Of a DNA stretch of 23,919 nucleotides, positions 4,102 through 6,792 are shown in pieces. The notes under the pieces are model-generated. The model was not told the origin of the DNA. It saw only the letters and a list, made by a program, of their open reading frames with translations, and ran no database searches. Each line of letters opens with the position of its first letter. Within the stretch, counting starts at the first letter, position 1. The stretch spans positions 1 through 23,919 of IMG/VR virus record IMGVR_UViG_3300040958_000036. One strand, 5' to 3'. The stretch comes from a virus. The translations under genes and the position numbers were made by a program.

Positions 4102-4371
4102 TTATCCAGCTTCTCTAGGGGCTTGCAGGCGACCCGACCAAAGCAGAAAGTTCGTGTGCATTTCTTGAAACCGCTTAAAGGCTGCGGCGTCAGTTGCCAG
4201 ATTGCGGCGGCTGAAGACACCGCAGACCGTGCGCAGATGTTCGGTGGCAGCGGTGGGGCTGAACTGGTGGCCGGGGAAGCCGTTGCGGGTGGCGGCGTAG
4301 CGCTGAAAGGCCACGTCATTGGCCAGCATGGCGGCGCGCATGGGGGCCTTGTCCTGGGTGATCTGCTGCAT
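4102..4371 (-). CDS. Hypothetical phage protein, 89 aa
   Basis: Unrecognised, but the coding look is good. It has an AGGAGG ribosome site 5 nt before the ATG at 4371 and a direct stop/start junction with the next gene. The N terminus is MQQITQDKAPMRAAMLANDV. The remainder (FQRYAATRNGFPGHQFSPTAATEHLRTVCGVFSRR) is basic and helical, with one tryptophan near the end. Overlapping proline-rich readings in other frames here are shadows. A stem of 8 bp lies in its upstream gap (4394-4436). Confidence 0.65.
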   Translation of the reverse strand: MQQITQDKAPMRAAMLANDVAFQRYAATRNGFPGHQFSPTAATEHLRTVCGVFSRRNLATDAAAFKRFQEMHTNFLLWSGRLQAPREAG

Positions 4372-5024: not shown

Positions 5025-5306
5025 TCACGCGGCATGGCGGCGCTGAACCCGGTATCCCTGTTTTTGGGCGTAGCAGCGCACGGTTTCGCCCACCCGGATC
5101 AGGGTCTGGTCGATTGGTTCCGGCGCGGGTTTGGGCCGGTCGATCAGATGCTGCGGCCGCAGGCGCTGTGGGTCAAAGCCCTGCCCGCGCGCGGCCTTCA
5201 TTGCCGCCCAGGCGGTGGTGAACAGGTTCGGATCATCAATGTGATCTTCGGGCGATCCGGCAATCTGCTGGGCGTCGCGCAGCACGGTATTTGATTTATC
5301 TTGCAT
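5025..5306 (-). CDS. First gene of the leftward early operon, 93 aa, unknown
   Basis: Unrecognised. The ATG at 5306 (MQDKSNTVLRDAQQIAG) follows a perfect GGAGG site with a 5-nt spacer and lies about 30 nt after the predicted -10 of the leftward operator-controlled promoter, so it is the promoter-proximal early gene. In lambda this position belongs to N. The protein is basic and helical at the N terminus and ends in an Arg/Gln-rich tail (CYAQKQGYRVQRRHAA), compatible with RNA or DNA binding. An antitermination role is only an inference from position; the middle section (FDPQRLRPQHLIDRPKPAPE) is proline-rich. Confidence 0.68.
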   Translation of the reverse strand: MQDKSNTVLRDAQQIAGSPEDHIDDPNLFTTAWAAMKAARGQGFDPQRLRPQHLIDRPKPAPEPIDQTLIRVGETVRCYAQKQGYRVQRRHAA

Positions 5307-5333: not shown

Positions 5334-5361
5334 AATGTATAGACAAAAACTACTACGTCAA
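5334..5361 (-). promoter_or_regulatory. Leftward early promoter (PL-like) with operator spacer
   Basis: On the minus strand TTGACG (5361-5356) and TACATT (5339-5334) are separated by exactly 16 nt. Those 16 nt are precisely one copy of the operator TAGACAAAAACTACTA, so a bound repressor would occupy the polymerase site. The promoter lies about 30 nt before the gene at 5306. Confidence 0.65.
5340..5355. promoter_or_regulatory. Operator copy 1 (OL-like)
   Basis: Exact TAGACAAAAACTACTA. It fills the -35/-10 spacer of the leftward promoter. The same 16 bp recur at 5369-5384 and 6554-6569. Confidence 0.7.
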
Positions 5362-5368
5362 TACCTTT

Positions 5369-5384
5369 TAGACAAAAACTACTA
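5369..5384. promoter_or_regulatory. Operator copy 2 (OL-like, upstream)
   Basis: Exact TAGACAAAAACTACTA, starting 29 bp from copy 1 in the same orientation and lying just upstream of the leftward -35. The spacing of nearly three helical turns would permit cooperative binding on one face. Confidence 0.7.
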
Positions 5385-5390
5385 TTACCC

Positions 5391-5421
5391 GAGAATCGAA
5401 AACCCCGCACTGGGCGGGGTT
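5391..5421 (-). terminator. Rho-independent terminator of the membrane protein gene
   Basis: The stem AACCCCGC/GCGGGGTT (5401-5408/5414-5421) has a 5-nt loop. On the minus strand it is followed by TTTTCGATTCT. It lies 32 nt after the stop of the 5454-5960 gene and would insulate it from the leftward promoter region. The T-run is short, so strength may be moderate. Confidence 0.65.
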
Positions 5422-5453
5422 CGGATGGTTCGGTGTGTGTTTGCGGTAAGGGG

Positions 5454-5960
5454 TTATTCGCCAGCGGCCAGTTCGGCGGCGCGTTTTTCAGCGGCCAAAA
5501 TTGTCGGGTATCTGCCTTCGCCGTCGACCGATATTCCATCAGAATATTTGTGCAGTTCGTAGCCTTTGACCATGCGCAGAAAGCGGCCTTCTGCCTGCGG
5601 CTTTGCCGCGTATGGTTCTGGGCGAGCAGTCAGCGGCGTGTGATTCGGTGCGGAGATCGGCGGTTCCATCGGGGGGTGTCCCGTTTGGGTTTTCAAATTG
5701 GCGACGTGTTCCAGGATCTGGCTGGTGTTGATTGCGGTGGCTACCTGAGCCTGAACAAGTTGCGCAGCCAGGACTAGGCCTAATCCAATAGCTGCCCCGG
5801 CGGCGCCGGACATCAGAACTACGAGCGTGGATGCTCCGGGCGGGCTGTTGCCTGTATTTAGCATGAGGGCGGCGCCACCTATGGCGAGGGTGACGATCAG
5901 CCACCCTATCACCTCAATGATAGCGGCGAGCGCGCGAGCGGTGGTAAATGTCTGATTCAA
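5454..5960 (-). CDS. Two-helix membrane protein of the immunity region, 168 aa
   Basis: Unrecognised integral membrane protein. I choose a TTG start at 5960 (LNQTFTTARALAAII), because AAGGAG lies 7-8 nt before it. An ATG at 6002 would add 14 residues and has no good ribosome site. Two membrane spans are clear: about residues 11-34 (ALAAIIEVIGWLIVTLAIGG) and 45-68 (TLVVLMSGAAGAAIGLGLVL). A short coiled coil follows (VQAQVATAINTSQILEHVANL), then a Pro-rich linker and a small C-terminal domain (FLRMVKGYELHKYSDGISVD). It lies between the repressor gene and the leftward operators and so could be expressed in lysogens. Small membrane proteins here are often superinfection-exclusion factors, which is an inference. 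Confidence 0.75.
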   Translation of the reverse strand: MNQTFTTARALAAIIEVIGWLIVTLAIGGAALMLNTGNSPPGASTLVVLMSGAAGAAIGLGLVLAAQLVQAQVATAINTSQILEHVANLKTQTGHPPMEPPISAPNHTPLTARPEPYAAKPQAEGRFLRMVKGYELHKYSDGISVDGEGRYPTILAAEKRAAELAAGE

Positions 5961-6028
5961 ATGGGTTCTCCTTGTTTTGTGGTTCCGAACGCAGCCCTGC
6001 AACGGTTTAGAAAATGGCGCGAGTTCAG

Positions 6029-6056
6029 TTCACGGCACACCCTTATGACGTATAAT
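6029..6056 (+). promoter_or_regulatory. Possible rightward promoter antisense to the repressor gene
   Basis: A perfect TATAAT (6051-6056) is preceded after 16 nt by TTCACG (6029-6034). It points right, into the end of the repressor gene on the opposite strand. A minus-strand TTGACA (6061-6056) overlaps it and could serve the membrane protein gene, although no good -10 is seen there. The gap 5961-6133 otherwise holds only a short dyad (ACAAT/ATTGT). Confidence 0.35.
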
Positions 6057-6133
6057 GTCAAGATGAGACAATTTTAAGTATTGTGCCGGGAGGGTGGAGA
6101 ATAAAGGAAATTTAAACGTGACAGATCAGATGC

Positions 6134-6496
6134 TTATTCATTTTCTTCGGCGCCTTTTGGCTGAGACTGATCCGCAGCAGCAGCGAGACCTCGCCCGTAG
6201 CCTAGCAGCTCTTTCAGCAGGTGATCGGGTAGTTGCAGTGCTAGGTGAGCGATCTCTCGCTCTACGGGGTTTGTGGCCTCGCTCATAAATTCTTCCAGCG
6301 TCGTCCCTAGGGCGGCGCAGACCTTGCGCGCTGATTCCAGCGTGGGGCTCTTGCTATCACCGTTTAGCCAGTGGCGTATCGCAGCATTGCTTAGACCTGC
6401 CTTTACGGACAGGGATGCAGCAGTGATTTCTGGGTCACTGTCGATCCGCTGTTTCAGTCGGATCAGGAATGGTTCGATGATCTCATGGTCCTTCAT
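6134..6496 (-). CDS. XRE-family phage repressor (CI-like), short form
   Basis: Predicted DNA-binding repressor, 120 aa. An N-terminal helix-turn-helix of the XRE/Cro-CI type spans about residues 22-72 (ITAASLSVKAGLSNAAIRHW, then SPTLESARKVCAALGTTLEE). The C-terminal part is a short helix-rich tail (VEREIAHLALQLPDHLLKEL) ending in an acidic stretch. It lacks the S24 peptidase domain of lambda CI or LexA-type repressors, so RecA-stimulated self-cleavage is not expected and induction must work differently. It is divergent from the Cro-like gene at 6580, with operators and two palindromes between them, which supports the repressor call. A likely own promoter has -10 TATTAT at 6522-6517 on the minus strand. 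Confidence 0.85.
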   Translation of the reverse strand: MKDHEIIEPFLIRLKQRIDSDPEITAASLSVKAGLSNAAIRHWLNGDSKSPTLESARKVCAALGTTLEEFMSEATNPVEREIAHLALQLPDHLLKELLGYGRGLAAAADQSQPKGAEENE

Positions 6497-6503
6497 GACT
6501 GCA

Positions 6504-6538
6504 TTCTATCGTTAGAATAATACGACTTCCTTCGTATT
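6504..6538. promoter_or_regulatory. Two palindromes at the repressor's own promoter
   Basis: TTCTA/TAGAA (6504-6508/6513-6517, 4-nt spacer) and AATACGA/TCGTATT (6519-6525/6532-6538, 6-nt spacer) lie in tandem just upstream of the repressor start. On the minus strand a TATTAT -10 (6522-6517) lies at their junction. They look like operators for autoregulation and differ in sequence from the three 16-bp repeats. Confidence 0.5.
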
Positions 6539-6543
6539 GTTTG

Positions 6544-6573
6544 TTGACGGATGTAGACAAAAACTACTACCAG
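6544..6573 (+). promoter_or_regulatory. Rightward early promoter (PR-like) region
   Basis: TTGACG (6544-6549), the same hexamer as at the leftward promoter, is followed 4 nt later by the third operator copy, which fills the position where the -10 should lie. The -10 itself is poor (TACCAG or CTACCA), so the exact promoter is uncertain. The Cro-like gene starts at 6580, implying a very short leader. Confidence 0.45.
6554..6569. promoter_or_regulatory. Operator copy 3 (OR-like)
   Basis: Exact TAGACAAAAACTACTA, as at 5340 and 5369. Here the flanking base extends the dyad to GTAG-N7-CTAC (6553-6567). Relative to transcription its orientation is opposite to that at the leftward promoter. Confidence 0.7.
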
Positions 6574-6579
6574 TGAGCC

Positions 6580-6792
6580 ATGGAACAGTTCATGGCCAAT
6601 GTGCGCGCCTATGCGGCGCAGTTCGGGATATCCCCGTCGACCGTCATCCAGAAGGCTGGGGTCGGCGGTGGCGGCACCTGGGCGAAATGGGAAAGCGGAG
6701 ACGGCACCCCCACGCTGCGCACCGCTGATCGCCTGAAAGACTATATGAAGGCGAACCCGCCCGCTGCTGACCAAGCGGAGGACGCCGCATGA
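6580..6792 (+). CDS. Cro-like HTH protein, 70 aa
   Basis: Small DNA-binding protein. Residues 12-56 resemble a compact helix-turn-helix of the Cro/XRE type: AAQFGISPSTVIQKAG, then TWAKWESGDGTPTLRTADRL. The TWAKWE..G..P pattern fits the recognition part of XRE domains. It is the first gene rightward from the operator region and divergent from the repressor, the usual place for cro. The ATG at 6580 lacks a strong ribosome site; an in-frame ATG at 6592 (MANVRAY) is an alternative. Its stop overlaps the next start by 4 nt. Likely function: repress the lysogeny promoter during early lytic growth (inferred from family and position). Confidence 0.75.
   Translation: MEQFMANVRAYAAQFGISPSTVIQKAGVGGGGTWAKWESGDGTPTLRTADRLKDYMKANPPAADQAEDAA

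Follow-up and report, generated by a model that had tools for sequence, protein, structure and literature searches.

Three exact copies of TAGACAAAAACTACTA at the two early promoters of the window, the whole stretch of 23,919 nucleotides of a marine bacterial virus analysed here, are very probably the operators at which a dimer of the immunity repressor encoded at 6134–6496 silences both promoters. We infer this binding and repression, together with the resulting immunity, from the positions of the sites, the architecture of the family of related loci, the symmetry of the sites and their covariation with the recognition helix of the repressor. The features of the region are as follows.

5025–5306, minus strand: first gene of the leftward operon, 93-aa protein, function unassigned, 95–97% identical in L009 and L010
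5334–5361, minus strand: leftward promoter TTGACG-16-TACATT, from sequence, promoter scan and the same arrangement in L009 and L010
5340–5355, plus strand: predicted operator OL1, exact copy of TAGACAAAAACTACTA that makes up the whole 16-nt spacer between the leftward −35 and −10; counterpart present in 32 of 39 loci
5369–5384, plus strand: predicted operator OL2, exact copy of TAGACAAAAACTACTA, 29 bp from OL1 and upstream of the leftward −35; pair spacing of 28–31 bp in 32 of 39 loci
5454–6002, minus strand: putative membrane protein, downstream of the repressor gene, between it and OL, at a position of variable cargo
6134–6496, minus strand: predicted immunity repressor, 120 aa, HTH_3/XRE, from Pfam HTH_3 (6.7e-08), structure model and covariation with operators
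6513–6528, plus strand: doubtful OR3-like site TAGAATAATACGACTT, 11/16 matches, shuffle p ~0.05, weak family signal at −40/−41
6532–6547, minus strand: candidate weak OR2, TCGTATTGTTTGTTGA as read on the plus strand, 11/16 matches to the reverse operator, overlapping the −35, shuffle p ~0.01
6544–6573, plus strand: rightward promoter TTGACG-18-TACCAG, from sequence and the same geometry across relatives
6554–6569, plus strand: predicted operator OR1, exact copy of TAGACAAAAACTACTA between the rightward −35 and −10; TAG-N10-CTA at the equivalent place in 35 of 39 loci
6580–6792, plus strand: first gene of the rightward operon, Cro-like HTH protein, 70 aa, HTH_3 match weak and below the cut-off, kept adjoining OR1 in relatives

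Scanning both strands of the window for the 16-mer gave the three plus-strand copies and no fourth copy with three or fewer mismatches on either strand, and the whole record gave the same three. The original prediction that the 16-mer occurs at 5340, 5369 and 6554 only thus holds even when three mismatches are allowed. The number of matches expected from shuffled sequences was 0.04, and none of 100 shuffles reached three. On the left, the minus strand reads TTGACG (5361–5356), a spacer that is exactly the 16-mer (5355–5340), as had been described from the sequence, and TACATT (5339–5334), and the promoter scan also found this promoter. On the right, the 16-mer comes after the same TTGACG (6544–6549), as also predicted, with GATG between them, and the −10-like TACCAG (6568–6573) overlaps the last two bases of the operator, giving a spacer of 18 nt; the simple promoter scan of the window did not call this promoter. 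The repressor gene lies, as proposed, between the two operator groups. Candidate OR2 lies 22 bp upstream of OR1, and the family-wide signal for a weaker site over the −35 lies at 24 bp (z 6.9). Two inverted repeats, TTCTA-N4-TAGAA (6504–6517) and AATACGA-N6-TCGTATT (6519–6538), stand between OR1 and the start of the repressor gene, the latter overlapping candidate OR2, and could be Cro-like or autoregulatory sites.

The predicted repressor scored 32.9 bits against Pfam HTH_3, for which the curated cut-off is 23, and its matches in PHROGs are phage transcriptional repressors. A peptidase domain was not found in it by Pfam, which gave HTH families only and nothing over the C-terminal part. The structure model, built with 13 relatives (mean pLDDT 81.5), predicts a five-helix repressor domain, and model residues 4–77 match C.AhdI, 434 Cro and P22 c2 at modest Z values of 7.6–9.1. 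Foldseek ranked the P22 c2 domain first for this model (E 0.027), and the C-terminal helices (77–110) were hardly covered by structure matches. The recognition helix is placed around residues 36–45 (SNAAIRHWLN), corresponding to helix 39–45 in the structure model, and we take SNAAIRHW to align with the recognition helix of P22 c2.

The repressor sequence as query found no match among viral contigs; the Cro-like protein led to relatives on two viral contigs, and subsequent alignment searches gave 41 repressor loci including the window, 39 of them non-redundant. The loci came from IMG/VR contigs, Rhodobacterales genomes, one Robiginitomaculum and one Phaeobacter plasmid, and nearly all of the 39 belong to Rhodobacterales phages and prophages. 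With the window and L074 repressors, tblastn detected no relative among 50,697 GenBank phages, and the plasmid search gave one, on Phaeobacter inhibens pP66_i. The C-terminal part is longer in L055, a distant member found in Salipiger marinus, and on visual inspection resembles a LexA-like peptidase region, which sets L055 apart from the other members. A search of the open-access literature brought up no account of these operators, and the window and its relatives are, as far as could be found, an undescribed family of a known type of switch.

In all 39 loci, a 16-bp site in the frame of the window operator follows the divergent promoter's −35 at a distance of 3–5 nt and ends 9–13 nt before the ATG. 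The site search accepted four of six outer-base matches, and the exact TAG and CTA at the OR1 place in 35 loci are thus a result and not an input. These outer bases are constant, and the inner ten bases vary among phages, the operator place being occupied by TAGGAGTTTACTCCTA in L009 and L031 and by TAGGATAAAAAAACTA in L010 and L029. Further sites within three mismatches of the locus's own OR1 averaged 1.56 per locus, compared with 0.09 for foreign operators, and most of them belong to the OL pairs seen in 32 of 39 loci. On the repressor side of OR1, 73 kb of sequence contained 119 occurrences of TAG-N10-CTA, compared with 4 in 327 kb from elsewhere. In relatives, the TTGAC of the leftward promoter (GTCAA on the plus strand) adjoins the first site of the OL pair, which lies 0.6–1.8 kb away from OR1. 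The central 4 bp of the operator are 94% A+T across the family, and A-tracts at the operator centre increase the affinity of the 434 and P22 repressors (PMC3317979). The original prediction had set the occurrence of the repeats in phages sharing the repressor as its test; L042, whose helix is the same, carries the 16-mer unchanged, and a same-frame site is present in every one of the 39 loci. The prediction's claim of a logic like that of lambda OL-cI-OR is thus strongly supported, with an XRE repressor gene flanked by copies of one operator at the two early promoters.

The −10 of the window's rightward promoter ends just 6 nt ahead of the ATG of the Cro-like gene. Considering this distance and that from operator to ATG throughout the family, the rightward transcript is probably leaderless. 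The gene between the repressor gene and OL varies, lying at 5454–6002 in the window, at 2099–2530 in L009 and at 4297–4950 in L010, which has a different gene. Because gene content varies and the distance between OR and OL ranges so widely, the interval is a likely place for lysogenic cargo, comparable to that of rex in lambda. The identity of 95–97% in the 93-aa leftward protein spans phages of differing immunity, and this protein is ~70–78% identical in 15 further contigs (L014–L028).

The original prediction called the operator largely non-palindromic, which is correct for the window sequence, in which only TAG and CTA are symmetric, and misleading for the family, whose sites are 16-bp dyads beyond chance. 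Interior half-site matches numbered 54 of 96, compared with 30.8 expected, and none of 10,000 shuffles equalled that. Half-site dyads are perfect in L031, L036, L060, L077 and L080, and perfect or near-perfect dyads at the same position in relatives include TAGGAGTTTACTCCTA, TAGATTTTAAAATCTA and TAGGTTTTTAAACCTA. Few operators of the family are less symmetric than that of the window, whose half-sites, TAGTAG and TAGACA, agree at 3/6 positions. L042 also has, at OL, TAGTAGAAAACTACTA, that is TAGTAG-N4-CTACTA, the full dyad of the first half-site. The direct-repeat character of the copies had been considered unusual for an XRE dimer; the copies are indeed on the same strand, but their orientation with respect to transcription is reversed between PL and PR, and some relatives have symmetric sites. 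Since the operator is a quasi-palindrome with a symmetric version in the same-helix L042, direct repeats need no special explanation, and the orientation of the 16-mer appears to have no evident meaning.

The main binder of the 16-mer might instead be the Cro-like protein (6580–6792), though we consider this very improbable. Lambda Cro binds the same operators as the lambda repressor. The gene for the Cro-like protein adjoins OR1 in relatives, and the window protein matches HTH_3, though weakly. Furthermore, the correlation of the Cro-like protein with the operator persists, at a small value, after control for the helix (Mantel partial r 0.17, p 0.018), a residual signal suggesting that shared ancestry, as a lineage effect, contributes. 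However, the co-resident prophages L042 and L049 share one Cro-like protein sequence and yet diverge in the repressor helix and at 5 of 10 interior bases of the operator, and the window and L031 have different operators with Cro-like proteins 91% identical. The window and L042 (Albibacillus), by comparison, share an identical helix and an identical operator (16/16), with flanks identical at only 28 of 62 positions and Cro-like proteins just 60% identical. The 6134–6496 repressor, rather than the Cro-like protein, is thus the likely reader of the operator interior. Partial correlations of the helix with the operator were 0.24 given the Cro-like protein and 0.29 given the C-terminal part of the repressor, compared with −0.04 for the C-terminal part given the helix, the overall helix–operator correlation being moderate (Mantel r 0.30). 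Pairs with identical helices (n=10) differed on average at 1.3 of 10 interior bases, and pairs with at least 6 of 19 helix differences at 5.2. L032 and L046, with Cro-like proteins 99% and repressors 85% identical, differ at 7 of 10 interior bases, and L036 and L037 have the same helix, yet differ at 4 of 10.

Equally improbable, in our assessment, is that the sites are asymmetric, orientation-dependent operators bound by monomers, as with the repressors of L5 and TipsytheTRex. The three copies in the window are identical, asymmetric and on one strand, and OR1 of L042 retains the same asymmetric 16 bases. This reading is opposed by the dyads across the family, some of them perfect, by TAGTAGAAAACTACTA in L042, by the opposite orientation of the copies relative to PL and PR, and by a 120-aa repressor with a single recognised HTH. 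The sites are also restricted to the immunity region, whereas those of L5 are numerous, occur throughout the genome and follow the direction of transcription (PMC9283540). Even less credible is that the repeats are intrinsic to the promoters, recently duplicated without a regulatory role, or the site of a host regulator. They do coincide with promoter spacers, but their positions are constant while the interior turns over with the repressor helix, and the 16-mer is fully kept in L042 between diverged flanks. Exact 16-mers in five viral contigs (L004–L008) were rejected as coding-sequence coincidences, since they sit inside long open frames of AT-rich viruses without a repressor relative.

Residue 36 of the repressor provides a candidate specificity rule. 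In 12 of the 13 loci with Asp36, both half-sites carried G at position 4; among the 26 loci without Asp36, 1 had this G pair. Among independent pairs on the tree, the rule held in about five of five well-supported pairs (p 0.06, five pairs being too few to reach 0.05), so that Asp36 may correspond to G at operator position 4. A rule linking Lys42 to C at operator position 5 was considered and not established. Albibacillus kandeliae J95 carries L042, L048 and L049 on three scaffolds, with Cro-like proteins 93–100% identical, three operators and three repressor helices. L043 and L044, both resident in Epibacterium Ofav1-8, likewise have different operators. Such co-resident prophages with differing operators agree with operator-specific immunity.

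Considering the repressor as the protein bound at the 16-mers, we propose the following course of events at the immunity region. A repressor dimer would bind TAG-N10-CTA dyads through its P22 c2/434-type HTH domain. Conserved residues, with N37 and the invariant R41 as obvious candidates, may hold the fixed outer TAG and CTA, and the inner bases may be read by variable positions in the first and middle parts of the helix (36, 42 and 43), together with the loop that follows it. The repressor at OL1 and OL2 would occlude the leftward early promoter, and the repressor at OR1, aided by the weak OR2 over the −35, would occlude the rightward promoter, which serves the Cro-like and replication genes. 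With both promoters occluded, the prophage would be silent and incoming phages that carry this operator would be repressed, and phages with another helix, and thus another interior, would be heteroimmune. RecA-stimulated self-cleavage is unlikely as the induction route because the repressor is without a peptidase domain; an antirepressor or another route would be needed.

The immunity regions of lambda, 434, P22 and 933W resemble that of the window in the divergent repressor and Cro-like genes, the repressor between two early promoters, the repeated short dyad operators overlapping the −35 and −10 of both, the P22 c2/434-type HTH_3 fold and the AT-rich operator centre. However, lambdoid regions have three operators per side, whereas the window family has two at OL and one strong and one weak at OR, a third OR site being doubtful. 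The lambda-type repressor has a self-cleavage domain of the LexA/S24 type, unlike the repressor of the window according to Pfam. The fixed TAG/CTA frame with a phage-specific interior also sets the family apart from lambdoid phages, as does the lack of a sequence relative among the GenBank phages searched. The operators of Rhizobium phage 16-3, compared by description and through the same negative tblastn search, have ACAA/TTGT ends. Phage 16-3, with its repressor C and immX, is likewise a temperate phage of an alphaproteobacterium and combines a 434-like repressor with early-promoter operators (works cited in PMC10460002).

Cluster A mycobacteriophages such as L5 and TipsytheTRex similarly combine one repressor family with many immunity specificities (PMC9283540; PMC6550527). 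Their stoperators are asymmetric 13-mers, bound by monomers at more than 20 sites genome-wide (PMC9283540), unlike the 16-bp dyads of the window, which are confined to the immunity region with three sites in a 23.9-kb, possibly incomplete, record. L5-type sites follow the direction of transcription, whereas the window copies are all on the plus strand at promoters pointing opposite ways. Two roseobacter systems resemble the window as temperate phages with XRE regulators: the Sulfitobacter phages CB2047-A and CB2047-D, the latter without a LexA-type domain (PMC7305329), and Phaeobacter prophages with xre-luxR-luxI, in which XRE regulators accompany lambda-like divergent promoters (PMC13345283). 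The word ‘operator’ is absent from both papers. Membership of these systems in the window family is not indicated, since tblastn with the window and L074 repressors found no relative among GenBank phages.

Superinfection immunity of marine Rhodobacterales phages has so far been poorly defined. Matching operators to repressors from sequence across some 40 phages and prophages gives predicted immunity groups. With moderate confidence, we regard the family as a natural specificity series, in which the 16-bp frame is fixed and a few residues of the helix (36, 42 and 43) and the following loop set the interior, so that immunity groups may be readable from sequence and new ones may arise via few substitutions. 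The family thus provides a data set on how HTH helix specificity changes over a constant DNA frame, in which the candidate rule for Asp36 and G at position 4 is open to direct testing.
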